A stretch of DNA of 64,000 bases. Source: Ignavibacteriales bacterium. Its GTDB lineage: Bacteria; Bacteroidota; Ignavibacteria; Ignavibacteriales; Ignavibacteriaceae. Shown here piece by piece: positions 13,179 through 28,430 of this stretch (within the stretch, counting starts at the first letter, position 1; each line of letters opens with the position of its first letter). Location: contig CP054182.1 in the NCBI GenBank assembly GCA_015709675.1, forward strand, positions 3,265,448 through 3,329,447, given 5' to 3'. The notes under the pieces were generated by a model. The model had not been told where the DNA came from. It saw only the letters and a list, made by a program, of their open reading frames with translations, and made no database searches. A program made the translations under genes and the position numbers.

Positions 13179-13308
13179 ATATGGCTCAAAAAGTTAATAA
13201 ACGGATAATACTAAATTAACAATAAGGTAATATCCGGAGAGTAGATTTCGTAATGAAAATTGGTTTTTTCAGGAGTATTACTATCAATTGAGGAATGAGG
13301 AAAAAAGT

Positions 13309-13521
13309 ATGTTCACAAATCATATGCTGGCTGCTGCCGTTATTGTGGCAGAGATATTCAGTTTTGTCAGAGGAGAATATTTATTCTGTCTGATTTTAGC
13401 ATTCGTGTTCGTCCTATACGGAATGATCCGCACGCTCATACATTCTGATATACCGGAGCTAAATCAGGAAATTTCGCTAATAACAAACCCGGCGGAAAAT
13501 AGCCGCGCCGGAGTATTATAG
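13309..13521 (+). CDS. Small membrane protein of unknown function
   Basis: I do not recognise this gene. It encodes about 70 residues from the ATG at 13309, preceded by GAGG at a suitable distance; an upstream in-frame TTG at 13288 would add seven residues. Two hydrophobic segments (about 5-20 and 22-43) suggest a small inner-membrane hairpin with a short polar tail. It stands alone ahead of the acyltransferase gene. Confidence 0.5.
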   Translation: MFTNHMLAAAVIVAEIFSFVRGEYLFCLILAFVFVLYGMIRTLIHSDIPELNQEISLITNPAENSRAGVL

Positions 13522-13587: not shown

Positions 13588-15327
13588 ATGCATCAGTTAC
13601 ATATTGAGTCACTTATTTTATCAAAGTATCCCGGCTTTCCCGGCAGACTTCTGCGGCCGCTAAAATCATTTATATTTCTTCTTACCAGGAAAATCCTTAA
13701 AGTTAAAGATATTAATTCATTTCTCACTCATGCTAAGGGTAAATCAGGCATTGATTTCATTGACGAAATTTTTGAATACCTTGATTTTTCATATATCCTG
13801 AGCGCAAAAGACAGGGACAAAATAAAAAGCGAAGGGCGTGTTGTTATTATTTCTAACCATCCGCTCGGCGGGCTGGATGGTCTAGCACTTGTGAAACTTA
13901 TCAGTGAAATCAGGCCTGATGTAAAGATTGTAGTGAATGACTTCCTGCTGAATATTGAGGAACTGAAACAATTCTTCCTGCCGTATGATCTCACGACTCC
14001 CAAAGCGCAGAGCCGGAATGTCAGAGCTATCATTGATTATCTGAATCATGACCATGCAGTTATAATCTTCCCTGCCGGTGTGGTCTCACGCTTCGGACTG
14101 AAGGGCATCCATGATGGCAAATGGAATAAGGGTTTTCTCTTTTTCGCGAAAGCAACCAACTCCCCCATTCTGCCGCTTTATATTGAGGGAAGAAATACCG
14201 TTCTATTTTATCTGGTCGGGCTTTTCAGCAGTCTGCTTTCGATGCTTATGCTGCCAAGGGAATTATTTAAGAAAAAGCGGTCATCAATCAAAATTACCAT
14301 CGGTAACCCGATACCTCCTGCATCATTTTCCAATTCGATAAAAGATGACAAGACAACATTAAAACTCCTCCGAAAGCATCTATTCCGTATCGCAAAAAAT
14401 AAACCGGGCATTTTTAAAACAGAAAAAAACATCATCCACCCGGTTGGCAAAAAAGAGCTGAAAAAGCAGATACTTCAGGCTGATGTGCTTGGTGAAACAT
14501 CTGATGGCAAACTGATTGTGCTCCTTGACTCTGAAAGAGCTCCCGATGTTATGCGCGAAATCGGACGGCTCCGGGAACTCACCTTCAGAAAAGTGGGAGA
14601 AGGGACCGGCAAGAGAATTGATCTTGATTACTTTGATAAAATCTACCGGCAGATTGTACTGTGGGATGATAGCGAGCTTGAAATTGCAGGAGCATACCGT
14701 ATTGGCGAATGCAGCAGAATATACCCTGATCACAAGCTTTACGGTATATATTCAGCTTCACTTTTTACCTTTTCAGAAGAATTAACCGGCAAACTTCATG
14801 CTTCACTTGAGCTGGGCAGGAGTTTTGTTAATGCAAAATACTGGAACTCCCATGCTCTTGATTATCTATGGCAGGGTATAGGAAGCTATCTTGCAGTCAA
14901 TCCGCAGATAAAATATCTTTTCGGACCGGTAAGTATCAGCAATGCATATCCTCAGGCGGCGAAGGAACTTCTGGTATTTTTTTTCAGGAAGTACTTCTCA
15001 CCGGCTGACTCATCTGTGCTTGCCAAAAATCCGTTCTTCATCTCACCTGCGAAAGAGAAGGAACTTTCGGAGCTTTTCTCAACCGGTTATTACCGGGCAG
15101 ATTTTCTTACTCTGAAAAATCAGCTGAAAATACTCGGCTTTTCCGTTCCAGTTCTCTTAAAACAATATACAGAGTTATGTGAGCCCGGCGGGGTTACGAT
15201 TTATGATTTCAATATAGACCCCGATTTTGAGAACTGCATAGACGGTCTCATACTGGTTGAAGTTGAAAAGCTAAAAGAGCAGAAACGCGCGCGCTACATC
15301 AAATCCAGTTACACAAAAGCAGTTTAA
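13588..15327 (+). CDS. Two-domain acyltransferase: PlsC-like domain plus hemolysin/OlsB-like GNAT domain (OlsF-like)
   Basis: The 579 residues join two acyltransferase folds. Residues about 60-265 are lysophospholipid-acyltransferase-like with SNHPLGGLDG (H91, D97: an HX5D spacing instead of the classical HX4D). Residues about 300-560 resemble the hemolysin-like/OlsB GNAT fold (RELTFRKVGEG, ELEIAGAYRIG, YLWQGIGSYL). This order is that of OlsF, which makes ornithine lipid in one protein: the GNAT domain N-acylates ornithine and the PlsC-like domain O-acylates the product. An aminolipid synthase acting at the inner membrane is the best guess. It is followed 5 nt later by a metallophosphoesterase gene. 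Confidence 0.82.
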   Translation: MHQLHIESLILSKYPGFPGRLLRPLKSFIFLLTRKILKVKDINSFLTHAKGKSGIDFIDEIFEYLDFSYILSAKDRDKIKSEGRVVIISNHPLGGLDGLALVKLISEIRPDVKIVVNDFLLNIEELKQFFLPYDLTTPKAQSRNVRAIIDYLNHDHAVIIFPAGVVSRFGLKGIHDGKWNKGFLFFAKATNSPILPLYIEGRNTVLFYLVGLFSSLLSMLMLPRELFKKKRSSIKITIGNPIPPASFSNSIKDDKTTLKLLRKHLFRIAKNKPGIFKTEKNIIHPVGKKELKKQILQADVLGETSDGKLIVLLDSERAPDVMREIGRLRELTFRKVGEGTGKRIDLDYFDKIYRQIVLWDDSELEIAGAYRIGECSRIYPDHKLYGIYSASLFTFSEELTGKLHASLELGRSFVNAKYWNSHALDYLWQGIGSYLAVNPQIKYLFGPVSISNAYPQAAKELLVFFFRKYFSPADSSVLAKNPFFISPAKEKELSELFSTGYYRADFLTLKNQLKILGFSVPVLLKQYTELCEPGGVTIYDFNIDPDFENCIDGLILVEVEKLKEQKRARYIKSSYTKAV

Positions 15328-15332
15328 ATTGT

Positions 15333-16268
15333 ATGAGAATAGCACATATATCAGACCTTCATCTCAGCCATGCATTTGATAAAAAGCTTACCGGAAGAGT
15401 TTACAAATTTCTGAAACATGTATCTCAGCGTGCTGATCACCTTGTCATCACCGGTGACATCTCAGACAATGCTGAAGAAGAAGATTTTATTCTTTTCAGG
15501 GAAATGCTCAGCCGGCTCGGGCTGATGGATGGCAATAAAACAAGCGTGGTTATAGGCAATCACGATATTTTCGGCGGAGTTATTAAAGCTGAGGATATTC
15601 TCAATTTCCCGCAAAGATGCCGCGAGACAGATTATCAGCAGAAAGTGGGGCTTTTTCATTCTTATCTGGGTGAACTTCAGACTAATTGCGTTTATCAGGG
15701 GACCAGAAATGGCTACCCCTATGCCAAACTTATTGAGGACAGCCTCGTTATAGGAGTTAATTCCATAGCTGAGTATTCCTCCCTGAGAAATCCGTTTGCT
15801 TCAAACGGAGAAATTTCAGACGAGCAGCTGATAGAAATTCAGACTATATTCAATGAATATTCAAAGTACTGCAAGACGAAGATAATTCTCGTTCATCACC
15901 ATTTTAACAAAATGCGTTATATGACCGGCAGCTTTACTGAAAGAATCTGGATGAATATTGAAAAACAGACCATGAAGCTGAGGAAAAAGAAAAAGATTCT
16001 GGAATTCTTTAAGCAGAATGGAGTAAACCTGATATTGCACGGTCATTTTCATCAGATGCACGCTTACACGAGAAAGTCCATTGAAATAGCAAATGCCGGG
16101 GCAAGCATCCGGAATGCCGGGGGACAATTTCAGTATAACCTGATTGGTGCAGAAAACGGTTCGGTATCAATCAGCCATAAAACCAAACTGATCGAAATTA
16201 AAAAACCACAACTTCTTCATATAATTGCACCCGCGGAAAATCTGCCAGGCAAGATTGCAATTGCCTGA
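15333..16268 (+). CDS. Calcineurin-like metallophosphoesterase
   Basis: Cytoplasmic phosphoesterase of unknown substrate. The 311 residues carry all five metal motifs in order: ISDLHLSH, TGDISDNAE, GNHDIF, VHHHF and HGHFH. The start is 5 nt after the OlsF-like gene stop, so the two are probably co-transcribed and a lipid-linked substrate is possible. It is the last gene before the repeat array at 16.4 kb. Confidence 0.9.
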   Translation: MRIAHISDLHLSHAFDKKLTGRVYKFLKHVSQRADHLVITGDISDNAEEEDFILFREMLSRLGLMDGNKTSVVIGNHDIFGGVIKAEDILNFPQRCRETDYQQKVGLFHSYLGELQTNCVYQGTRNGYPYAKLIEDSLVIGVNSIAEYSSLRNPFASNGEISDEQLIEIQTIFNEYSKYCKTKIILVHHHFNKMRYMTGSFTERIWMNIEKQTMKLRKKKKILEFFKQNGVNLILHGHFHQMHAYTRKSIEIANAGASIRNAGGQFQYNLIGAENGSVSISHKTKLIEIKKPQLLHIIAPAENLPGKIAIA

Positions 16269-17033: not shown

Positions 17034-18650
17034 TTATTTAATAAGCGTCATTTTCTTAGTGATGATCTGATTGTTCGCGATCAGACTATAGAAATAGATT
17101 CCGCTTGAAAGCTGTGAACCGTTAAAGGTTACTGAGTGCTGACCTGCTGAGAAATCAGTATTTGCAAGTACAGCTACTTCCTGACCAAGAGCGTTATATA
17201 CTTTCAGTACTACTTCTGAAGCTTCAGGCAGTGAGAAAGAAATAACGGTTGAAGGGTTGAACGGATTAGGATAGTTCTGGCTGAGTGCATAGTCAGTAAC
17301 CGTGCTGCCTGAAACGAGATCCTTATCCTTTACATCGGTAAGGATATATCCTGCACCTGAGAGCCAGTTAGCCCATCCCTGAGTCCAGTCAGTGATACCA
17401 AATGCTCCAACGTGGAGTCCGCCATTTGGATCAAAGAATCCGTCTGCAGGCGGTGTAATTGCTCCGGTCAGTGCAGGTGAACCTGCCTTAGGCATGAAGT
17501 TCGGCGCATTCAGGTTGAACGGATCAGTGATCCCTGCTCCTGAGTTTGAAGTAAAGATTCTGCCTGAGTTGGTTGTGGTAAACCATGCTACCGGATCCCA
17601 TGAAAGATTCGGTGAACCGGTTGTGTCAATTGCCTTGGATGTTGCTCCGGCAATGATGCTGTTCTTTATATAATTGGTTCCGTTGATAGCACCGTTGATG
17701 GTTCCGCTTCTGTCAAGCAGTACGCCGGTTGGCCAGCCCATGATAAGCGCATTGCTGATCTTGTTCTGTGAATTTCTTCTCAGATGCATACCTCTTCTGT
17801 AAAGGCTGTTTACCGTGGTGGTATCAGTTACTTTAGGACCTACCATGGTTACATTGAACCAGGTTGGTGCAGTAAGAGGGGTGTTGCCTGAACCTGAACC
17901 GTCGTTGTCTGATTCAAAGCCGTTTGACTGTGACTGATCTGCAATAAGAGGATCTCTTACTGCAAGCAGATACTGAAGCTTTCCTGAGAATCCGAAATCG
18001 GTATCAAAGTCATCATCCCATCCGCGGTATGCAATAAGATATTTTCCGTTTACATTTCCGCCAAACCATTCGAATGAATCGTCTCCTGAGTAGCTTACCT
18101 GTATATGTTCAACTACTGTTCCTGATCCAACTCCTCCGAAAGTAATACCATTGATTTCGTTGTTCGGTGAGAATGCAATACCGGGGTATTCAATTCTTAC
18201 ATAACGCAGGCTTCCGCTGTTATCGTTCGGATCACTTCCGCCGTAGCTGTCGCCCGGGCCTTCAATAGATGCAGTACCGCCCGGTACGTTAATCGGTGCA
18301 TTGCCAAGAAGGATGATTCCGCCCCAGTCGCCGTAGGTTGGCTGACGGGTGGATCCCTGCTTTGCGAATTCTGAGGTGAATACAATCGGCTGGGTTGCTG
18401 TACCGTTGGCAATCAGCTTTCCGCCTGGTTTTACGATAAGTGAACCCTGGGTTGAGTTCTCACCAAAGATAACCGTGCCCGGCTGTATGGTAAGTGTGGC
18501 ACCTGACTGAACGCGTACAAACCCGCGAAGCAGATAGGTCTTATTAGAAGTCAGAGTAATATTGGTTGTTATATCACCCTGCAATACCTCCTGAGCCGAA
18601 CCGGTTACAGTTAGGATCATTAAGATAATGAGCAAGAAAGATTTCTTCAT
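17034..18650 (-). CDS. Secreted protein with type IX secretion sorting domain
   Basis: Signal peptide (residues 1-19, ending at GSAQ), then about 430 residues of repetitive, Gly/Asn/Thr-rich sequence that looks like a parallel beta-helix (phrases such as SGATLTIQPGTVIFG and GSLIVKPGGKLIANG), then a type IX tail (from about 455, with QNYPNPFNPSTVISF and a final KMTLIK). It should be exported by the Sec pathway and moved to the cell surface by T9SS. It starts 22 nt after the TonB-receptor gene and so shares the Pho-box-like promoter at 21.5 kb. A surface partner for nutrient capture is plausible; the ligand is unknown. Confidence 0.85.
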   Translation of the reverse strand: MKKSFLLIILMILTVTGSAQEVLQGDITTNITLTSNKTYLLRGFVRVQSGATLTIQPGTVIFGENSTQGSLIVKPGGKLIANGTATQPIVFTSEFAKQGSTRQPTYGDWGGIILLGNAPINVPGGTASIEGPGDSYGGSDPNDNSGSLRYVRIEYPGIAFSPNNEINGITFGGVGSGTVVEHIQVSYSGDDSFEWFGGNVNGKYLIAYRGWDDDFDTDFGFSGKLQYLLAVRDPLIADQSQSNGFESDNDGSGSGNTPLTAPTWFNVTMVGPKVTDTTTVNSLYRRGMHLRRNSQNKISNALIMGWPTGVLLDRSGTINGAINGTNYIKNSIIAGATSKAIDTTGSPNLSWDPVAWFTTTNSGRIFTSNSGAGITDPFNLNAPNFMPKAGSPALTGAITPPADGFFDPNGGLHVGAFGITDWTQGWANWLSGAGYILTDVKDKDLVSGSTVTDYALSQNYPNPFNPSTVISFSLPEASEVVLKVYNALGQEVAVLANTDFSAGQHSVTFNGSQLSSGIYFYSLIANNQIITKKMTLIK

Positions 18651-18672: not shown

Positions 18673-21450
18673 TTAGAATGCTAAACTTAATCCTAGAGAA
18701 AAACTCATATCGGTGTTGTACTCTTCGACCACTTTTTCGCCAAACGGAGTTTTCTGGACGAAATTGTAGTCCTGAGCCAGAATATCTTTAACAACTGCTT
18801 TTACAGCAAAATTCTTAAATATCCTTTTGGAAAAGGAAAAGTCAATCTGATCTCTGGATTTCTGAATGATATCACCGATATCAGTTGTGCCCACTTTACT
18901 GATTCTGTCACCAACTTTATTAAAGGTCAGTGAAGAATTAATACCGTTCTGATAATCATCATAGTAGAGTCCGGCGTTCAGAATGTAATTTGCCTGTCCC
19001 TGAAGCGGACGCTCGCTTGTCTGAAATCCTTCAACACCTGAATTACCAAGAGTAATTTTGGAAGAGATCAGACTCAGATTTCCTACAAGCGAAAAGTTTG
19101 ATAAATAGTCGGATATAAAACCGAGTGATTTACGCAGTTCCATCTCAAAGCCATAATTTTCTGCTTTATCTGCGTTCTTATATGAGCGGATCGGCTCAAG
19201 TGCAGAAGATGCAGTGAGAATCTGCTCTATAGGATCAGTAAATGATTTATAATAGACACTGAGAGCAAGCAGTTCTCCCGGTCCCATAAAGAGCTCATAC
19301 CGGAAATCAAAGTTGCTGATCATTGTTCTGCGTAGTGACTCATTGCCAATCACCAGCTCATTTGCCAAAAAGTCAAAGTAACTGAAAGGTGCGAGTTCCC
19401 TGAATTCCGGACGGGCCAGTGTCTTAGAATAAGCAAAGCGGAAGTTGGTAATATCATTAAACAGATAGGTAATGCTTACAGCAGGAAGTAAATCGGAATT
19501 GTTATTATTGATTTCAACCGGCTGATCAGTCTGGGATCTTGACATCAGGCGCTGCTGGGAGTTTTCAAGACGGGCACCAAAAATCAGGCGCACTTTATCA
19601 ATCACTTCCCAGTCAAACATCATATATGATGCAAACACACTTTGCTCGGATGAATAACTGTCTGACGGCTTTGTTATTTCAACAATCTGAATGAATCTGT
19701 TATCAAAATTTTCCGGTTTGAATATCTCTTCAACTGAGCGCTGCAGAATGGTATCCTCACGGAAAAAGTTTCCTCCCGGTATATTCTTAAATCCGAAACT
19801 GCGGGCATTAAAAGAGCGGCCCTTATCATCATACCCGGCACCAAACTTAACTGTGGGCATATTTCTTTCAGCAAACGGTTTCATCGTGATGCTAATGTTA
19901 GCCCCGGTATTTTCATCTTCCAGATCAGAGAAAAAGCGGGAAGCGAGCGACTGATCAAGCTGAAAGCGGAGCGGTTCTTCAGGATCATCATTATTCTTTG
20001 AATAGATATATCTTCTGTTATCCGGCTCATCGCGGAATGACTTCGCAAAGTTTGTATTCCACTCAAGATTAATGCCGTTCAGCAGGTTAAAACGGTGTTC
20101 ACCGATAAGCTGATGTGAGCGGAGTATTCTGGATACAAACTTCAGGTTATTGGTCTCCCGGTACTGGCTGTATGCATAGTAGTCGCCCTTATAGAGGGTA
20201 ACTTCATCATCACCGCTCTGATTATAGATATTCTTAAAGCTGATTTTATCGTTGGTTGAAGTCTTGAAGCTTATGTTCGCAAGCGCTCCCCAGACAACTG
20301 AATAGTTGTAGGTTGAACCGCTGTATTCGTAGCGCAGGCCTTCGTAAGTATATGCGCTTTTTTCAAGATTCTTCACATCAAATGAACTCGCGTAAGAAAG
20401 TGAACCGACAAGACCAAGAGTATTTCCGCCAAACTCATATTTATCACCAATACTCAGTTTATAACTGCCATTGACCATGGATTTTGTGTCTTTCAGATCC
20501 CAGTTATTCTTAAAACCAAGCCCAATTACCCTGAGGGCGCTGTCAGCATTCATACCGGAAAAATTTCCGGGTGTCAGTTTGAAGTCCGGGACTAACGATG
20601 GCAGACTTCTTGTGCCGTCATCCTGTCCGAGCCAGTCGCTGGCACCGGACTGATATCCTTTAAATACTGCAAGATTATTTGACTGGTTGTAACCGGCTGA
20701 ATAGGAAAAATCCCAGAAAAAGGACTGAGGAAATTCCAGAGTCTGAATCTGTACCAGTCCTCCTGAAAAGTCAGCAGGTTTATCTGGTGTGAAAGTTTTT
20801 GCTGTTACAACATTTTCGATAAGACTTGCGGGAAAAATATCGTACGAGAAACTTTTCTTCTCAGGATCGGTTGAGGGAAGGTTTGCACCATTCAGAAGAG
20901 TATTATTATACCGGTCCCCTATTCCCCGTATATAGGCATATTTCCCTTCAGAAATGGTAACGCCCGTCATCGTCTTAAGAATATCTGTTCCATCGCTGCT
21001 GTTATTCTTTTTAATGAGTTCAGCGCTGATTCCGTCAACAATATTGATGGAGTTTTTCTGAATTTTAAGCACAGCAGCTTCTGAATTTCTCATAGCTTCA
21101 GCGGTAACCACTACTTCCTCAAGCTGTGTTGCTGATGAAACCATGGAGATATTCAGGCGGGTTTCCTTTCCTGCTTCCACTTGAACGTCCTTGATCACCA
21201 GTGTCTGGTAAGAGATGTAAGAAACTTTTAACTCATACACTCCCGGATCAAGATTTTTGACAGCATAAATGCCATCAATATCGGTTGAGGCACCGATGGA
21301 GGTTCCGGAAACCAGAATATTAGCCCCGATAAGTTCCTCATTATTCTGCTTATCGGTGATCTTTCCGGTTATTGAACCTTTATTTTGTGCGGTTATATTG
21401 CCGGCTATAAAAACCATAATCAGCAATGCCGCAAAAACATGCTTTGACAT
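18673..21450 (-). CDS. TonB-dependent outer membrane receptor with carboxypeptidase-regulatory-like domain
   Basis: The 925 residues start with a signal peptide (about 1-21), followed by an Ig-like CarboxypepD_reg/CNA-B domain (about 25-110, GKITDKQNNEELIGANI) common in Bacteroidota TonB receptors. A plug domain follows (about 130-235, including AYIRGIGDRYNNTLLNG), then a 22-strand-type beta-barrel to the C-terminal Phe. It should import a substrate across the outer membrane using TonB energy. The Pho-box-like promoter 36-91 bp upstream and the neighbouring 5'-nucleotidase suggest a phosphorus compound, by inference. No SusD-like partner gene is adjacent. Confidence 0.92.
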   Translation of the reverse strand: MSKHVFAALLIMVFIAGNITAQNKGSITGKITDKQNNEELIGANILVSGTSIGASTDIDGIYAVKNLDPGVYELKVSYISYQTLVIKDVQVEAGKETRLNISMVSSATQLEEVVVTAEAMRNSEAAVLKIQKNSINIVDGISAELIKKNNSSDGTDILKTMTGVTISEGKYAYIRGIGDRYNNTLLNGANLPSTDPEKKSFSYDIFPASLIENVVTAKTFTPDKPADFSGGLVQIQTLEFPQSFFWDFSYSAGYNQSNNLAVFKGYQSGASDWLGQDDGTRSLPSLVPDFKLTPGNFSGMNADSALRVIGLGFKNNWDLKDTKSMVNGSYKLSIGDKYEFGGNTLGLVGSLSYASSFDVKNLEKSAYTYEGLRYEYSGSTYNYSVVWGALANISFKTSTNDKISFKNIYNQSGDDEVTLYKGDYYAYSQYRETNNLKFVSRILRSHQLIGEHRFNLLNGINLEWNTNFAKSFRDEPDNRRYIYSKNNDDPEEPLRFQLDQSLASRFFSDLEDENTGANISITMKPFAERNMPTVKFGAGYDDKGRSFNARSFGFKNIPGGNFFREDTILQRSVEEIFKPENFDNRFIQIVEITKPSDSYSSEQSVFASYMMFDWEVIDKVRLIFGARLENSQQRLMSRSQTDQPVEINNNNSDLLPAVSITYLFNDITNFRFAYSKTLARPEFRELAPFSYFDFLANELVIGNESLRRTMISNFDFRYELFMGPGELLALSVYYKSFTDPIEQILTASSALEPIRSYKNADKAENYGFEMELRKSLGFISDYLSNFSLVGNLSLISSKITLGNSGVEGFQTSERPLQGQANYILNAGLYYDDYQNGINSSLTFNKVGDRISKVGTTDIGDIIQKSRDQIDFSFSKRIFKNFAVKAVVKDILAQDYNFVQKTPFGEKVVEEYNTDMSFSLGLSLAF

Positions 21451-21485
21451 TTTTTTTCCTTTAATATTTTTTACCTTCGACGCCC

Positions 21486-21541
21486 CAAACTTACCGCCCC
21501 AATGTTACCTTAATGTTAAGGCAGGGTTAACAGAGTGTTAA
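21486..21541 (-). promoter_or_regulatory. Pho-box-like operator with TAnnTTTG promoter, upstream of TonB receptor
   Basis: On the minus strand, TTAACA, TTAACC and TTAACA (plus-strand positions 21536-21541, 21525-21530, 21514-21519) repeat at exactly 11 bp. They are followed by exactly 20 bp and TAAGTTTG (21486-21493), matching TAnnTTTG. A further GTAACA lies one period on (21503-21508). The hexamers occupy the place of a -33 element. PhoB/PhoP regulators bind direct hexamers with 11-bp periodicity, and the same layout recurs at 24.3 kb. The start site would lie about 30 nt before the receptor ATG. Confidence 0.72.
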
Positions 21542-21738
21542 TCTTTGAGGGGTGTGTCCGGCGTACCATTCCTGATGACTGTATCATGAAGGGACAGGTA
21601 TCTGATAAAAATGCTTTTTGGGGGATATTTTCGAAATTCTGGCCTGGAAATCAGACAGAGATTACCGGCTTCCTCAATTAGTGATTCCTCACATTGTTGC
21701 TGAATCCAAATAGTAAGGGGAAGTCAGGATGAAAAAAA
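21542..21738. other. Intergenic remainder between Pho-box-like promoter and 5'-nucleotidase terminator
   Basis: I see no gene or repeat here. Together with the operator and the terminator at 21.74 kb it makes up the 338-nt gap between two minus-strand operons. Confidence 0.4.
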
Positions 21739-21766
21739 AGCCGCCGGTCTGGCAAACCGGCGGCTT
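21739..21766 (-). terminator. Rho-independent terminator of 5'-nucleotidase operon
   Basis: A strong 11-bp stem (AAGCCGCCGGT / ACCGGCGGCTT) with a T-run on the minus strand, 20 nt after the 5'-nucleotidase stop codon. Confidence 0.9.
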
Positions 21767-21788
21767 TTGGAGAGGATATGGAGTTCGT

Positions 21789-23648
21789 TTATTTTACGAG
21801 CAAGAGCTTTTTTGTCAGAGATTTTCCGCCAGACTCAAGCCGGTAAAAATAGGTCCCGCTAGCAAGGTTTCTTGAAGAAACATCAAATACCACTGAATAA
21901 CTTCCCTCTTCCTGATAACTATCAACAAGAGTGGTTACCAGCGCACCGGATAAATCATATATTCTGAGGGATACAAATCCTGCTTTCGGCAGGAAGTAAT
22001 TAATTGTTGTGGATGGATTAAAAGGATTCGGATAGTTTTGCTCCAGATTGAAACCGGTGATTCTGTCTGCCTCCCCGAAATCATCTTTCACAGAAGTAAT
22101 TCGTCCCACACCGCCCGGAGTAATCATCTGATGGGCAATAATATATGCCATAAGCACTTCGAACTCGGTAGAATCTTCAAACATATAGGGATTAATAAGC
22201 GTTACTCCCACCATGTTCTGAAGCGCATAGGCAAGGAATTCATTGAGTGTTGCAGTATATACAGCTGCGGGATCAAGCGGCTGGCCGCCAATAGTTACCC
22301 CCGTTACCCTGCCCGGACCCGCTCCGTTTATATCAAATGAGTAATTCATTCCTGAGACCTGCGGCAAAAGTTCATCGTCATACTCAATTGCCTGGAGTCC
22401 GAACTCCAGTCCCATAATTAAATCAGCGCCCGATATGCCGCACTTAATAATACGGTATCCGAGAGCCTTAATGGTGTCAAAACCGTATCCGATAGCTCTG
22501 AATGCATCCGCGGGAACGATCGGTCCTTCATAAATCGGCTGTGCTGTTGAACCGCCGACCGTCAGTGCTACCTGAGTTCCCGTTTTCCATCTGAAGGCAT
22601 CGGTGACCAGATTGCCTAACGGGGTATCAAATGAATCAGCCGAGACACTTGGCCGGGCAACTTCCCAGAACGTTCCTGCAGCATAACCAATCTGCTGAGT
22701 ATATACCGGTCCGTAGAGCGCCTCAATCTGGGTGATAAGGGTATCAACCATATCTTTGGTCGTGGGCTCTTCAGGGATGGTATTGTCCAGTTCAATTGGC
22801 AGATAACTTATCACGGATACATCTGTTGATGTGGCAGCAAGAGTAAGTTTTCCTACCTCCGTGTAATTGGCACTTGTCTGAACAATATATACCGGTTTGC
22901 CTGCAGGATTGGTAATAATCTCCGGCTGTATCGTTTTATAATGGTCATGCGCGCTGATGATAACATTGATGCCGGGTACTGATTCTGCAATAGCCCGGTC
23001 ATACATGATTCCCAGATGGGACATCAGAATAATCACGTTACACTGCTGGGTGAAAAGTTCAGTGAGCGCCGCCTCAAGATAGCCGTCTATAGTATCAATA
23101 ACAACAGGCGCGGGAAGTGAAAAAAGGTTGGTGCTTGGGGTTGTAAGACCAATCAGGCCGATCTTGCTGTTTCCTTTCTGAATGATATGGGTTTTCTTGA
23201 TATATGGCTGCAGAGGGGAAAAACCGTCCAGTATGGCATTTGCTGAAAGTACCGGAATGGCATTAGTTGCAAAGGCAGCTTCAAAACATCCGTAAAGTGC
23301 TTCAGGACCGAGATCAAATTCATGGTTGCCTAAGGCAATTGCATCAAAGTTGAGTGCTTTCAGAAATTCGAGTTCTGCTACTCCGAAGAATTTGTTGAAA
23401 AACAGATCACCTATAAAAAAATCACCGCCGTGAAGAGTTACAACATTCGGCTCAGTTACCTGAGTCATACCGATCACGGATGCAGCTCGCGCAATACCGC
23501 CTCTTGTTCCCTTCAGATTCATATCGCGAGGTGCCAGCGGGGCAAGTGTTGAATGCGTATCATTGATGTGCAGAATGGTTATGGTATCTACCTGAGCGTT
23601 CAGGCTTGCACATAAAATTACCGTAAAAAGAAGAATTAGATTTTTCAT
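21789..23648 (-). CDS. Secreted 5'-nucleotidase/UDP-sugar hydrolase-type metallophosphatase with T9SS tail
   Basis: The 619 residues have a signal peptide (1-18) and a metallophosphoesterase domain (about 20-290) with HINDTHS, GGDFFIGD, GNHEFDLG, SHLG and SAHDHYK. A 5'-nucleotidase C-terminal substrate domain follows (about 325-490), then a type IX tail (from about 535, EQNYPNPFNPSTTINY). It should release phosphate from nucleotides at the cell surface. It is the second gene behind the Pho-box-like promoter at 24.3 kb, which fits phosphate scavenging. Start-to-stop spacing to the preceding gene is 30 nt. Confidence 0.92.
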   Translation of the reverse strand: MKNLILLFTVILCASLNAQVDTITILHINDTHSTLAPLAPRDMNLKGTRGGIARAASVIGMTQVTEPNVVTLHGGDFFIGDLFFNKFFGVAELEFLKALNFDAIALGNHEFDLGPEALYGCFEAAFATNAIPVLSANAILDGFSPLQPYIKKTHIIQKGNSKIGLIGLTTPSTNLFSLPAPVVIDTIDGYLEAALTELFTQQCNVIILMSHLGIMYDRAIAESVPGINVIISAHDHYKTIQPEIITNPAGKPVYIVQTSANYTEVGKLTLAATSTDVSVISYLPIELDNTIPEEPTTKDMVDTLITQIEALYGPVYTQQIGYAAGTFWEVARPSVSADSFDTPLGNLVTDAFRWKTGTQVALTVGGSTAQPIYEGPIVPADAFRAIGYGFDTIKALGYRIIKCGISGADLIMGLEFGLQAIEYDDELLPQVSGMNYSFDINGAGPGRVTGVTIGGQPLDPAAVYTATLNEFLAYALQNMVGVTLINPYMFEDSTEFEVLMAYIIAHQMITPGGVGRITSVKDDFGEADRITGFNLEQNYPNPFNPSTTINYFLPKAGFVSLRIYDLSGALVTTLVDSYQEEGSYSVVFDVSSRNLASGTYFYRLESGGKSLTKKLLLVK

Positions 23649-23678
23649 GACACTACTCCTGTTTGTATTATATTTTTT

Positions 23679-24224
23679 TTAGATCGTTTTATCTATTGCA
23701 TATCCGAAAATGAACGATACGCGGACACCCTTTGGATTCGTAGTGACCGCCAGGTTAAGCGGAATGCTTACACCGCCAAAATCAAAGCTTTTTCCAACCG
23801 CCAGCATCAGTGCGGAAGAAACAGTAGTCTGCGATGCCATAAGGTTGGGGCCCATGCCGAATTCAATTCCGTTGGGAAATCTGATTCCGAAACCAAGCGT
23901 TGCTCCCGGAATGATTTTGCCGTATTCCACTCCCGAAATCAGCGGAATGACCTCAATGATGAAGCAGGGACCTTCTATATTCGGAACTATCTGATACTCA
24001 AAGTGCCAGCCGAACTGACTAAGGAATCTACCTACCTGTTCATCACGTAGTTTCTGGACTAGTTCACCTTCTCCCGGAATGAAGGTAAATCCGAGCCGCG
24101 GACCGCCCAGATTACGGGACACAAACTTCACCGGGGTTTTGGTTTCGGTTGACTGGGCAAAGGAGTTTTCTGCCGAAGCTGATATGAAGATCAGGCAGAT
24201 ACTAAGAAATACTATCCGTTTCAT
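23679..24224 (-). CDS. Small exported outer-membrane-like protein, unknown function
   Basis: I do not recognise the family. The 181 residues have a signal peptide (about 1-23, ending at SFAQ) and then alternating hydrophobic/Gly-rich stretches suggestive of a short beta-barrel or beta-sandwich (GATLGFGIRFPNGIEFGMGPN). It is the first gene after the Pho-box-like promoter and precedes the secreted 5'-nucleotidase, so phosphate-limited expression and a role at the outer membrane are inferred. Confidence 0.7.
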   Translation of the reverse strand: MKRIVFLSICLIFISASAENSFAQSTETKTPVKFVSRNLGGPRLGFTFIPGEGELVQKLRDEQVGRFLSQFGWHFEYQIVPNIEGPCFIIEVIPLISGVEYGKIIPGATLGFGIRFPNGIEFGMGPNLMASQTTVSSALMLAVGKSFDFGGVSIPLNLAVTTNPKGVRVSFIFGYAIDKTI

Positions 24225-24268
24225 TGTTGTAACCTTTCGTTAATTAGTAATATTGAATTCTTACGGTT

Positions 24269-24324
24269 CAAAATTACCGGGGGGCTATAAGGCGGGTGTC
24301 ACGGAGTTGTCATGAAATTGTAAA
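24269..24324 (-). promoter_or_regulatory. Pho-box-like operator with TAnnTTTG promoter, upstream of outer-membrane protein/5'-nucleotidase operon
   Basis: On the minus strand, TTTACA, ATGACA and GTGACA (plus-strand 24319-24324, 24308-24313, 24297-24302) repeat at exactly 11 bp. They are followed by exactly 20 bp and TAATTTTG (24269-24276). Hexamer spacing, distance to the -7 element and its consensus all equal those of the 21.5-kb site, while the spacer sequences differ, so this is not a copied segment. It lies between the terminator of the response-regulator gene and the operon it would control. Confidence 0.75.
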
Positions 24325-24391: not shown

Positions 24392-25087
24392 TTAATCGGA
24401 ATGATTCAGCCGGAACCGGTAACCTGCCCGGTGAACCGTCAGCAGATGCTCTGGCTCTGAAGGATTTACTTCTATATGTTTTCTGAGGGAAAGAATAAAA
24501 TTATCAACGGTGCGGGTTGTCGGGTAAGCGTCATATCCCCAGACGTCATCCAGGAGCTTCTCACGTGAGACAACTTCATTAGCGTGCCTGATAAAAAAGA
24601 TTAGCATTTTATATTCGGTTACCGAAAGATGAAGAACCGTGCCGTTTTTCCTGACTTCCTGATGTTTCAGGTCAACGGATATATCACCAAATTTGACGGT
24701 TGACCCGGAAACTGCTGCGCCTTCTGATCTGCGCAAAACCGCTTTCACCCGGGCGACAAGTTCCCGCGCTGAAAAAGGTTTGGTTATATAATCATCCGCG
24801 CCGAACTCAAGCCCCATTATTTTATCTATCTCCTCTTTTCTGCTGGTGAGCATTATTACGGGGATGGTCATCCGCTCTTCATTTCTGAGTTTTTGCAGGA
24901 GATCAAGCCCGTTCAACTTTGGCAGCATGATATCAAGCAGTATCATATCCGGCTTAAATGAGAGTGCAAGCGATAATCCGGCTTCACCGTCTCCTGCTGT
25001 TTCAATTTCGAAATGCTCTGCTAAAAGAAGCGTTTTAAGTCCCTCAACAATAGCGGGCTCATCCTCAACTAACAGAATCTTTTTCAT
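24392..25087 (-). CDS. OmpR/PhoB-family response regulator
   Basis: The 231 residues have a receiver domain (1-120; acidic pocket ED at 9-10, phosphoacceptor D52 in LLDIMLP, Lys in TKPF) and a winged-helix DNA-binding domain (about 130-230, ending AGYRFRL). OmpR/PhoB proteins bind direct repeats, and the two 11-bp-spaced hexamer arrays next door make this the obvious candidate to bind them, which is an inference. It sits 27 nt after its kinase gene and before a terminator. Confidence 0.93.
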   Translation of the reverse strand: MKKILLVEDEPAIVEGLKTLLLAEHFEIETAGDGEAGLSLALSFKPDMILLDIMLPKLNGLDLLQKLRNEERMTIPVIMLTSRKEEIDKIMGLEFGADDYITKPFSARELVARVKAVLRRSEGAAVSGSTVKFGDISVDLKHQEVRKNGTVLHLSVTEYKMLIFFIRHANEVVSREKLLDDVWGYDAYPTTRTVDNFILSLRKHIEVNPSEPEHLLTVHRAGYRFRLNHSD

Positions 25088-25114: not shown

Positions 25115-27661
25115 TTACATCTTTTTACTGAACACGCTTCTTTTTCCAGAGCGGAATTTCTTATGGTCTGACAATGACGGAAGCGAAAAACGGAAAGTGG
25201 TGCCGTCGTTTTCATTTGGCACTGCTTCAACTTTTCCCTGATGCACATCGGCTATATGTTTAACTATTGCCAGTCCGATGCCCATACCTCCTGTACTTTT
25301 ACTCAGAGGATTACTCAGCCGTTTATATGGTTCAAATATCTCATCTCTTTTTTCCGGAGGAATCCCAACTCCTCTGTCGGTAAAGCTGATAGTTATATAT
25401 TTCTCTTCTCTGATTACCGAAACTTTAAGATATTTTACTTTGTCTGAATAACGGATGGCGTTAGCTATGATATTGACGCATGCTTCAGTGATTGCGTCTT
25501 TATCAGCATAAACCGGCATATCCTCTTCCTGATAATACTCCTCCGTCTGAAACGCATTCATTTGGAGCTGATACTGCATCATGAGCACTACTGATCTGAC
25601 CAGCGCGGTCAGATTACACTCATCAAGCGAATATTCCTTAATTCCTTTTTCAATCCTTGCAAAGTCCAAAACGTTATTTATCAGCCGCGCAAGCCGTTCA
25701 GTTTCTCCTTGTATAATCTTAAGATATTTTACTCGATCCTCCTCACCGGCTTTGCTATCCTGCAGAATCTCTGCAAACAGTTTTATTGAGGTGAGCGGAG
25801 TTTTCAGGTCATGTGAAACACTCGAAACGAAAAAGGATTTCAGTTCATTCAGCTCTTTGAGACGGGCGGTAATCTCCTTTTCAAAACGCAGATTATATTC
25901 AAGTTCAATCCGCTCAACGGCCATAACGAACTGGTTACCCGAGAAAAGTATAAGATTCAGCTCTTCGGAGCTAAGAGGGAATTCAGATTTTTTCTCACCG
26001 AGTATCAGGCAGGCAATTATCTTTTCATTCGCTCCGCTAAAGGGAATAACCGCATGCATAAACTGTAAATCTGCGCTGCTTAGGACCAGGTTTTCATGAA
26101 CTATTTCTGTTTCCTTATTCAGTCCCCTTAATTTTGGAAGTCTGGCACCCTGACCATGAAGTATACTTCTGATAAAAGAAATAATTTCAAGGTTTCTTCC
26201 CTTCTCACTATCACCGCAGAAAAGTGTGCCTGATTCAGGCAAATGTGTATTGTGAATATACAGCCCTGAGAACTTTACAGGAATGAACCGTTCTATCTCA
26301 CTGGAAATCATCTCCGCTGCCTGCCTGATTCCGGTGGCGCTTTCCAGTCTGGCAGCTATCTGGTGTTGTGCTTCAACAAAATTAACTTTCACCATAAAAA
26401 ACCGCCGGTCAACTAAATCCTTTACCCGTTCACGCAGCGGTTGAAAAAGCAATGCCGTAACTACCGATGAAACAGCCGATAACATAACAGAATTTATGAC
26501 CGTAAGCTGCCCGATCAGCATTGCTGCTCCTCCTAAAATAACCGTATAAATACCAAGCACAGCAAGCAATGAAAGACCATAGATGGTACTCCGCCGGAAA
26601 ATCTGATCTATATCAAAAATATGATAGCGGACAATGGAAAAACCATAAGTAAGAGGAAGGACCGCCACCAGAATCAGAATCAACTCCTCGGGAACCAGTC
26701 CTTCTGAGGTAAAGAACTGAGGTATCTGCCAGAAGAGAATAAAAGAAAGCGGTCCGGTAACTGTTCCGAAGAATATCCATTTCAGCTTTTGTCTTTCTGA
26801 CTCATCCGCAGATTTTCTGAAAGAATGAATAAAATTCCCCACTCCTGCAATGACCGATACCGCAAAAAATATCCTGCAGATATCAAACCACGCTTCATAA
26901 CGGTTGAACCAGTCAATACTTCTCTCCGAAAGTGCGTGATATGCAGTATAACCAAGCACAGCTGAAAGCAAAACCGGGATCACGGAAAGAGCGAATACAA
27001 TCCGAAGGGTATGAGGCGTTTTTTCCCTCGGAAAAACAAAAGTAAACCAGAGAAAGAAAAAGGGGACAATTGCATATGAAGCTGAAAAGATGATCCTGTT
27101 CAGCACTCCTGTCCATAGTGCCGGGTATATATAACTGCCCCAGGTCATGGTTATCATTCCAAAAGCAGCAAGCATCATCCCGTGAAACGTCAGCGCTGCT
27201 TTATCGTACAGCGGCCGTTTGAGCAGCACAATTATACCGACCGCGAACACCACAAGCGCAAGGCTCCCAGCGGCAATAATATAAAACCATCCGTAAAACC
27301 TGGTCAGTTTCAATTCCGCATGCAGTATTTCCTCCCTGTGGAGAAACTCTGCGCTCACAATTCTGCCTGTATTTAGCCCGTCACAGGCGAATTCAAGATC
27401 CTCAAATGAAGTAAGCGGTATGCCGTCAAGTGATTTTAACTGCAGGCTTTCAGGAAGGATGATTCCCCTTGCATCCACTGTCTGTTCGGATAAGATGAGT
27501 CTGTCTTGCCGGAGCTCAAGTTTAAGCGGAACTGCTGATTTTTGATATACCTGAAAAATTCCCGCGATTCCCAGAATCAGGACAATTGCATCCAGGACGA
27601 GGATATATCGTTTGATTTTATAATTATCCTGTACAATTTCCTGTCTCATGAACCGCCTCAC
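25115..27661 (-). CDS. Membrane sensor histidine kinase with 7TM-like sensor and GAF-like region
   Basis: The 848 residues have a TM helix (about 21-40), a short PDZ-like extracytoplasmic segment (about 60-118), a block of about eight TM helices (120-385), a GAF-like cytoplasmic domain (about 405-580), HisKA with SHDLKTPLTS (His near 616), and HATPase with N box NIIANAIRYS (about 735), DRGVGIP and GGMGIGLAIV. This is much larger than a typical PhoR, which has one or two TM helices and a PAS domain. Partner of the response regulator. Signal unknown; phosphate status is inferred from context only. Confidence 0.9.
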   Translation of the reverse strand: MRRFMRQEIVQDNYKIKRYILVLDAIVLILGIAGIFQVYQKSAVPLKLELRQDRLILSEQTVDARGIILPESLQLKSLDGIPLTSFEDLEFACDGLNTGRIVSAEFLHREEILHAELKLTRFYGWFYIIAAGSLALVVFAVGIIVLLKRPLYDKAALTFHGMMLAAFGMITMTWGSYIYPALWTGVLNRIIFSASYAIVPFFFLWFTFVFPREKTPHTLRIVFALSVIPVLLSAVLGYTAYHALSERSIDWFNRYEAWFDICRIFFAVSVIAGVGNFIHSFRKSADESERQKLKWIFFGTVTGPLSFILFWQIPQFFTSEGLVPEELILILVAVLPLTYGFSIVRYHIFDIDQIFRRSTIYGLSLLAVLGIYTVILGGAAMLIGQLTVINSVMLSAVSSVVTALLFQPLRERVKDLVDRRFFMVKVNFVEAQHQIAARLESATGIRQAAEMISSEIERFIPVKFSGLYIHNTHLPESGTLFCGDSEKGRNLEIISFIRSILHGQGARLPKLRGLNKETEIVHENLVLSSADLQFMHAVIPFSGANEKIIACLILGEKKSEFPLSSEELNLILFSGNQFVMAVERIELEYNLRFEKEITARLKELNELKSFFVSSVSHDLKTPLTSIKLFAEILQDSKAGEEDRVKYLKIIQGETERLARLINNVLDFARIEKGIKEYSLDECNLTALVRSVVLMMQYQLQMNAFQTEEYYQEEDMPVYADKDAITEACVNIIANAIRYSDKVKYLKVSVIREEKYITISFTDRGVGIPPEKRDEIFEPYKRLSNPLSKSTGGMGIGLAIVKHIADVHQGKVEAVPNENDGTTFRFSLPSLSDHKKFRSGKRSVFSKKM

Positions 27662-27746: not shown

Positions 27747-28430
27747 TCAGGATTTTCCCTTTCCGGCAAGCACACCATCTGCCTCAATTTCCCTGAAGAT
27801 ATCCTTCAGTGACTCGAGGTAGATTTCCTCAATCTTTACTTCAGGAGGATTAAACGGATAAAAGAAGATGAGCAGTGCCTGAGTCCATGTTTCAAGTTGT
27901 GCAGTTCTCTCGTAGTGTTTGATCTTCATTCCGTTGCGGTCGGTAACATGAGCGGTGAATATATATTCCCACGAATATGCCACGGGTAAAACGGAGAGTG
28001 AACTCCCGGCGAAAAGATCTGCGAGGAAGTGCTTGGCGAATGAGTGTTCACGCCGGATGACCACGTGAACGGTATAATCATTCGCTTCTTTTAGACTGTC
28101 CCTCATCCTTCTTCGGTTCACATTGTCTATATCATCATATGCATCCGTGAACGTCGCGAATGTTTTAATGTTGTTTATCTGCTTCATTGATTCCTGCAGG
28201 ATATCCTTAAACCCTCTGCGCGGCAAAATAATCTTTGGAACTACATCAAATCCTTTTGACTGCTCAAGGTGGCTGAAATAAAAGAAAACTGCAACCGGCT
28301 CCCTGGCAGTAAGTGTTACAGATTCCTGCTTAAACGATCCGTGGATATCAGAGCGGAATGACATGCATCCGGAGATGAGGAGCGGGAGAACTATGAGGAG
28401 CAAAAACCGGGACAAACGGGAACGGGACAT
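27747..28430 (-). CDS. Predicted lipoprotein of unknown function
   Basis: I do not recognise the family. The 227 residues have a lipoprotein signal (LISGC, Cys22) and a mixed alpha/beta body. The wording of the middle part (VHVVIRREHSFAKHFLADLF, a helix-rich amphipathic stretch) and the repeated FYPFNPPEV region do not reveal a catalytic motif. It is separated by 85 nt from the kinase gene, on the same strand. Confidence 0.7.
   Translation of the reverse strand: MSRSRLSRFLLLIVLPLLISGCMSFRSDIHGSFKQESVTLTAREPVAVFFYFSHLEQSKGFDVVPKIILPRRGFKDILQESMKQINNIKTFATFTDAYDDIDNVNRRRMRDSLKEANDYTVHVVIRREHSFAKHFLADLFAGSSLSVLPVAYSWEYIFTAHVTDRNGMKIKHYERTAQLETWTQALLIFFYPFNPPEVKIEEIYLESLKDIFREIEADGVLAGKGKS

Follow-up and report, generated by a model that had tools for sequence, protein, structure and literature searches.

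In Escherichia coli, Pho boxes lie ∼10 bp ahead of the -10 element. Among the Bacteroidota, of which Riemerella anatipestifer is a member, TTTG forms the -33 element of promoters. The E. coli Pho box consists of 11-nucleotide (nt) head-to-tail repeats (PMC4415409) and Bacteroidota sigma-A promoters carry TAnnTTTG at -12 to -5 (PMC9723704), both as given in the sections of those papers covered here. We have analyzed a 64,000-bp stretch, referred to as the window, from an Ignavibacteriales bacterium (GCA_015709675.1, contig CP054182.1, positions 3,265,448 to 3,329,447), in which an earlier note had described two promoters with Pho-box-like direct repeats. We consider it probable that a single promoter frame serves two PhoB-family paralogues, RR3 and RR1, through two hexamer codes, class A being a Pho box and class B a sister operator, a scheme in which we infer the binding, the activation and the phosphate signal.

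Within the Bacteroidota, DNA affinity purification sequencing of the R. anatipestifer response regulator PhoP gave 583 peaks with TTTAACA as the most conserved motif, which is close to the TTAACA of class A; the term "direct repeat" does not occur in that paper, and its covered sections give no promoter geometry (PMC9603813). In Flavobacterium johnsoniae, phosphate depletion induces TonB-dependent transporters, PlcP and a glycosyltransferase, a set resembling the gene content of class A, and the phoBR operon holds a Porin_O_P gene that is itself not induced; the terms "pho box," "motif" and "promoter" do not occur in its text, and no second paralogue appears in the covered sections (PMC8115612). 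PhoB of the Bacteroides fragilis PhoRB system binds the pst promoter on a 512-bp fragment, with no operator defined in the part of the report covered (PMC3547664). Among the titles and abstract openings of the open-access literature we found no description of a Pho operator for the Ignavibacteria, and the layout reported here offers a concrete operator and promoter arrangement for phosphate control in a group without one in the literature surveyed.

Two operator classes in one promoter frame

Judged by their sequences, the two look-alike promoters of the window are real, are conserved in relatives and split into two operator classes. As the earlier note had stated, both hexamer triples, at 21514-21541 (-) and 24297-24324 (-), are present with 0 mismatches and an exact 20-bp gap to TAAGTTTG and TAATTTTG, respectively. 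N20 is a proper description of that gap for the second site, but at the first the gap contains a fourth in-phase hexamer, GTAACA, at 21503-21508; the second site has CTTATA in this slot, and class B has no conserved fourth hexamer. A search of the window for DTDACM three times at 11-bp steps followed by N20 and TANNTTTG, allowing up to 3 mismatches, returned 3 matches compared to a mean of 0.11 in 100 dinucleotide shuffles (maximum, 2). The third match, absent from the earlier note, lies at 13194-13249 (+), carries 3 mismatches and sits 338 nt before olsF, a phosphorus-free-lipid gene. Across the whole genome, the class A model scored 21486-21541 at 37.4 bits (E = 1.1e-8) and 13194-13249 at 39.9 bits (E = 1.9e-9), and the class B model scored 24269-24324 at 40.9 bits (E = 7.2e-10), all three being training sites.

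Loci were fetched around RR1, OlsF and 5'-nucleotidase matches in 40 relatives and then scanned (G and L numbers below denote genomes and loci). Arrays before olsF orthologues read TTAAYA four times, N9 and TAnnTTTs; next to orthologues of RR1 and of the 5'-nucleotidase, the arrays have two to three hexamers and take the form TTTACA-WTGACA-KTGACA-N20-TAnnTTTG. Training sets of 17 class A and 8 class B sites were picked by eye, leaving out ambiguous arrays (L042, L049 and L056 for A; L019, L061, L064, L067 and the second L069 array for B). When scored with both matrices, all 80 class A rows (scores of at least 28) favored A, with a margin of 10.9 bits or more, and all 37 class B rows (at least 18) favored B, with one of 14.7 bits or more, in loci that had partly been fetched for their model matches. 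For such loci, mononucleotide shuffles (for each class, one match of at least 18 in 1.6 Mb) do not amount to a control over whole genomes, and the E values of the models are a better, yet rough, guide. A single operator class was also considered and is rejected on this separation together with the co-occurrence of class B with RR1 described below.

With both classes pooled and no gap penalty, a strong -7 box was found 5 to 40 bp beyond 36 of 55 hexamer triples, five loci having been omitted as duplicates, while mononucleotide shuffles gave 0.3 per pass for a triple with a strong -7 box. The gap measured 20 bp in 19 of these triples, 9 bp in 11, 31 bp in 3 and another length in 3. Gaps of 9 and 31 bp equal the 20-bp gap minus or plus one repeat, and N9 after the fourth class A hexamer is the same register as N20 after the third. 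With the T of TAnnTTTG set to -12, a reference taken from the covered part of PMC9723704, class A half-sites start at -60, -49, -38 and -27 and class B half-sites at -60, -49 and -38, the -60 one being often poor at the other sites of this genome. The chosen start codon lies a median of 34 nt (73 class A) or 31 nt (35 class B) downstream of the -7 box and within 100 nt in 62/73 class A and 32/35 class B cases, as is expected of Bacteroidota sigma-A promoters. The proposal that hexamers at 11-bp steps stand at a set distance from a Bacteroidota-type -7 box was borne out in relatives.

Both classes share the 11-nt head-to-tail repeats with the E. coli Pho box and the TAnnTTTG box with Bacteroidota sigma-A promoters, a hexamer occupying the position of the -33 TTTG. 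Class A has the direct repeats of 11-nt period and the fixed, short distance to the downstream promoter element that mark a Pho box, but it differs from that of E. coli in its four TTAAYA half-sites and in the N9 leading to TAnnTTTG rather than TATAAT. Class B departs from it in its TTTACA/KTGACA code and in the slot from -27 to -22, where there is no conserved half-site.

Class B sites and the regulator RR1

The distribution and placement of class B sites suggest that they are read by RR1, which is encoded right beside the site in the window. In a tree of regulators, RR1 falls in a clade of 13 genomes (support 99/97), apart from the clade of the YycF/RpaB-like paralogue RR2 (91/99). Class B matches of at least 20 bits were present in 12 of the 13 RR1-clade genomes compared to 2 of the 28 others; the exception, G019, reached 16.2 bits, and the two others are G010 (81% complete) and G037 (a 38-column partial match). 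Restricting the comparison to genomes without training sites left 5 of 6 in the RR1 clade versus 2 of 28 (Fisher P = 4e-4). Order-wide, among 164 genomes searched with stricter filters that lose weak matches, class B (E ≤ 0.001) was found in 35 and RR1 (E ≤ 1e-66) in 43, with both in 31 (Fisher P = 2.1e-19, a value that overstates independence, as do the others here, because the genomes are related). Without the 7 training genomes, 24 had both, 12 RR1 alone, 4 class B alone and 117 neither (P = 1.4e-15). Removing G037 and G040, which pass the RR1 cut but sit outside the clade, gave P = 1.6e-20. The four class B genomes lacking RR1 are 77 to 90% complete.

Of the 31 genomes, 21 have a class B site no more than 10 kb from RR1 (16 of 24 without training genomes), and 7 have one within 1 kb, in each case 3' of the RR1 gene and on the same strand. 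In relatives, the layout recurs beside orthologues of the regulator or of the 5'-nucleotidase. Nor does class B follow RR3, being present in G013 and G023, which have no RR3 match. Class B sites outside the training set scored E = 3.1e-5 in this genome; G003, which contributed no training site, gave E = 3.8e-7 (32.3 bits). In the same-genus genome G001 (88% complete) there was neither an RR1-clade gene nor, at E = 1e-50, a 5'-nucleotidase match, and its best class B match was 13 bits. Two points weigh against the scheme: in 12 of the 43 genomes with RR1, class B gave no match at E = 0.001, and RR2, a third regulator, may use a similar box.

By family models, RR1 falls short of the PhoB equivalogs (TIGR02154, its best family, at 233.3 versus a cutoff of 296.2; NF053854 at 178.9 versus 270). 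A Protein Data Bank search with RR1 returned RegX3, MtrA, KdpE and others, and the DNA-binding domain alone added E. coli PhoB (1gxp and 3t72).

Order-wide, the 53 proteins downstream of class B sites include 10 5'-nucleotidases, 6 of the OMP181 (181-amino-acid [aa] outer-membrane-like protein) type, 4 serine-palmitoyltransferase-like proteins, 3 UbiA and 2 endonuclease/phosphatase-like proteins. Many of the others resemble surface or lipid genes, and many have no family. The tally used thresholds of at least 28 for A and 18 for B with repeat proteins removed, 5 A and 2 B sites being lost for want of a downstream frame, and fetching by gene inflates OlsF, 5'-nucleotidase and RR1 in it; 5 of the 10 5'-nucleotidases came from loci fetched by that gene, the other 5 from loci reached through the model only. 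In this genome, class B sites precede the outer membrane protein (OMP)/5'-nucleotidase operon, a gene pair of UbiA-family and lipid-kinase-like type (178 kb) and, named by eye, tandem lipoprotein-like genes (849-858 kb), OMP-like genes (1139-1142 kb) and a gene resembling those of the type IX secretion system (T9SS; 219 kb). At 175 kb, an alpha-oxoamine synthase has a weaker class B site of its own (12.6 bits, E = 0.63); its NCBIfam scores, 367 bits for bioF and 364 for serine palmitoyltransferase, are each below cutoff. At 849-858 and 1139-1142 kb, 7 genes behind class B sites were tested, and none matched Pfam at E = 0.01.

These genes would suit a role of class B in surface and lipid remodeling. 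More tentatively, and with rather less than even confidence, we suggest that the Ignavibacteriales may have a second PhoB-family pathway, insulated and consisting of RR1 and the adjacent 848-aa kinase. It would respond to a signal from the envelope or from lipids and not to phosphate flux, and it would drive a secreted-nucleotidase, surface-lipoprotein and serine-palmitoyltransferase-like lipid program from Pho-frame operators that stop at -33, one half-site short of PhoB sites.

Class A sites, a probable Pho regulon and RR3

With the training genomes counted, 32 of the 41 had a best class A model match of E ≤ 1e-5. Behind class A sites we found 73 distinct proteins, among them 20 with a TonB plug, 11 OlsF-type acyltransferases, 9 Metallophos and 6 Porin_O_P proteins, 2 PBP_like_2 proteins (PstS type) and 1 each of Phosphonate-bd, PAP2 and a PhoB-type regulator. 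The receptor and metallophosphoesterase sites are largely from outside the training set (19 of 21 and 8 of 9, respectively). The olsF count is not independent: olsF served to fetch these loci, and each of the 11 sites is in the training set. Of the 20 genomes in which olsF has a match, 11 have a class A array in front of it. In same-genus G001, the 925-aa receptor is preceded by the same array (L165), and in G005 a 21.3-bit site (C34:95392-95445) lies directly before an RR3-type regulator gene (95473).

The enrichment before phosphate genes of relatives that the earlier note had put forward as a check was seen for the class of its first site: class A stands before phosphate-starvation genes in relatives, the case being weak for pst in this genome. 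The claim of a Pho regulon is likewise supported for the first site; the second as the same Pho operator is not supported. On this gene content, class A most likely represents a Pho regulon whose reader is RR3, a PhoB-like regulator with its gene outside the window.

RR3 (genome positions 3136460-3137143) adjoins a PhoR/PnpS-like kinase, whose best family is PnpS (282 versus a cutoff of 400). It has a match at E ≤ 1e-45 in 38 of the 41 genomes, and the three without, G013, G020 and G023, come first, third and sixth when genomes are ordered from the weakest class A upward (exact P = 0.001); class A strength is unrelated to the presence of RR1 (P = 0.72). The co-occurrence is thin, and weaker than that of class B with RR1. 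Several observations weigh against RR3 and a Pho regulon here. G023 has a class A match of 23.5 bits despite lacking an RR3 match. The RR3 match in G010 (81% complete) has 41% identity (E = 8e-47), no better than RR2-type matches, and if this genome is counted as RR3-less, its class A site is nonetheless strong (E = 1.9e-7). RR3 itself is under the PhoB cutoffs (NF053854, its best match, at 236.8 versus 270; the other at 236.1 versus 296). This genome has two strong class A sites only, both in the window, with others at no more than 13.1 bits; at its pst/phn operon, a search for a strong site gave only TTAACA-N5-TTAACA (12.4 bits, E = 0.84).

Proposed scheme, rival readings and neighboring features

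The two regulators differ in a stretch that, from PhoB structures, we take to lie on the DNA-reading helix: DVH[IV]RK in RR3 (18/18 aligned, its own and 17 of 30 RR3-search loci) and DN[FY]IL[SNT] in RR1 (13/13). The 14 RR2 sequences read DNFI[LV][KR], two having M or V for I. RR3 would bind the four head-to-tail class A half-sites, from about -60 to -22, and, so bound, would replace the -33 element and bring RNA polymerase to the TAnnTTTG box. Low phosphate would in this way turn class A on, providing uptake through the TonB receptor and phosphorus-free lipids through olsF and the metallophosphoesterase. RR1 would bind two or three altered half-sites (TTTACA/WTGACA/KTGACA) ending at about -33, thereby turning on the adjacent OMP/5'-nucleotidase operon and a broader surface and lipid set. 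The classes offer a natural case in which to ask how paralogues of the PhoB family keep apart: frame and period are the same and hexamer code and helix residues differ, so that specificity swaps can be designed and tested.

The earlier note had instead taken both sites for one Pho operator read by the regulator encoded at 24392-25087, with class B no more than a variant box. This would account for the period, -7 box and N20 register common to both window sites, for PhoB as the best family of RR1 and for phosphorus-related genes in both operons. It is improbable, however, in view of the separation of the sites by at least 10.9 bits and the unlike recognition helices. RR1 is tracked by class B and not by class A, genomes without RR1 have strong class A, and RR1 and class B occur without an RR3 match in G013 and G023. 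The second site belongs to a separate class that tracks the neighboring regulator and the first, on thinner evidence, tracks another PhoB-like regulator. Still less probable is RR2 as the reader of class B; its helix is near that of RR1 and weakly similar boxes are close to RR2 genes (L036, L032 and L025), but RR2-clade genes are found where the best class B match is below 20 bits (G001, G014, G026, G027, G029, G031 and G032), and class B sites are clustered next to RR1.

We can also practically dismiss chance repeats in AT-rich DNA upstream of promoters, without regulatory role, a view refuted at the level of sequence. In its favor, the triple by itself is weak in the window: without the -7 box and at 2 mismatches there were 12 matches compared to 6.3 expected, and 5 of 100 shuffles equaled this, so the strength of the window signal comes from adding the -7 box. 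The full pattern is far above the shuffles, non-training class B sites are significant in this genome and in G003, and the arrays are conserved upstream of orthologous genes, all of which speaks against chance.

The features of the window are collected in Table 1.

Table 1. Operator-promoters and genes of the window (positions from the first nucleotide of the window)
Feature	Position	Strand	Remarks
Class A operator-promoter (Pho-box type)	21486..21541	-	TTAACA-N5-TTAACC-N5-TTAACA-N5-GTAACA-N9-TAAGTTTG; 11-bp steps
Class A operator-promoter upstream of olsF	13194..13249	+	TTAATA, ATAATA, TTAACA, GTAATA, N9, TAGATTTC
Class B operator-promoter	24269..24324	-	TTTACA, ATGACA, GTGACA, 11-bp steps, N20, TAATTTTG
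Response regulator RR1, OmpR/PhoB family	24392..25087	-	Pfam Response_reg and Trans_reg_C; proposed class B reader
Histidine kinase, 848 aa, likely RR1 partner	25115..27661	-	HisKA, HATPase_c; HisKA_7TM just under cutoff; adjacent, same strand
227-aa protein, likely in regulator operon	27747-28430	-	Upstream of kinase; no Pfam or NCBIfam match
181-aa outer-membrane-like protein (by eye)	23679..24224	-	First gene past class B promoter; no Pfam or NCBIfam family
5'-Nucleotidase with T9SS tail	21789..23648	-	Pfam Metallophos, 5_nucleotid_C, Por_Secre_tail
TonB-dependent receptor	18673..21450	-	Start codon 35 nt past class A -7 box
T9SS-tailed protein, likely in receptor operon	17034..18650	-	Pfam Por_Secre_tail; 22-bp gap
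OlsF, bifunctional ornithine-lipid synthase	13588..15327	+	NCBIfam NF052615, 723 bits (cutoff, 620)
Metallophosphoesterase	15333..16268	+	Pfam Metallophos; PlcP-like candidate, PlcP by inference alone

Relatives of the 181-aa protein sit behind class B sites at 5 other loci, and 9 class A sites in relatives are followed by homologues of the metallophosphoesterase. A hydrophobic frame of 70 codons, recognized by eye at 13309-13521 (+), lies in the stretch from the class A promoter to olsF; in G001 the spacing is nearly the same (337 nt). An imperfect 14-bp direct repeat, CGCCCCAAACTTAC/CGCCCCAATGTTAC, at 21481-21508 overlaps the -7 box of the class A site before the receptor.

Directly beyond the right end of the window lies a phosphonate-type and Pst-type transport operon (L198:5013-12079; genome 3330013-3337079), which encodes PhoU, ABC ATPases, permeases, a phosphonate-binding protein and one of PstS type. 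At L152:9121-18578 and L153:9366-12981, lipoprotein-like and OMP-like genes that have no Pfam family occur in runs, and several of them have a class B promoter to themselves. A protein with a FICGSLNQTT-like start recurs behind four class A sites (L209:2576-3613, L239:2094-3143, L224:2610-3632 and L171:13788-14840) and, from its looks, would be guessed to be a glycosyltransferase. A possible third box, of the type TTTTAC..TTTACC..GTGACA..TACAAT-N9-TAGTTTTG, was seen at L036:1379 (-), L032:2694 (+) and L191:1556 (-); two of the three are near RR2 genes, and it may be RR2's own operator.

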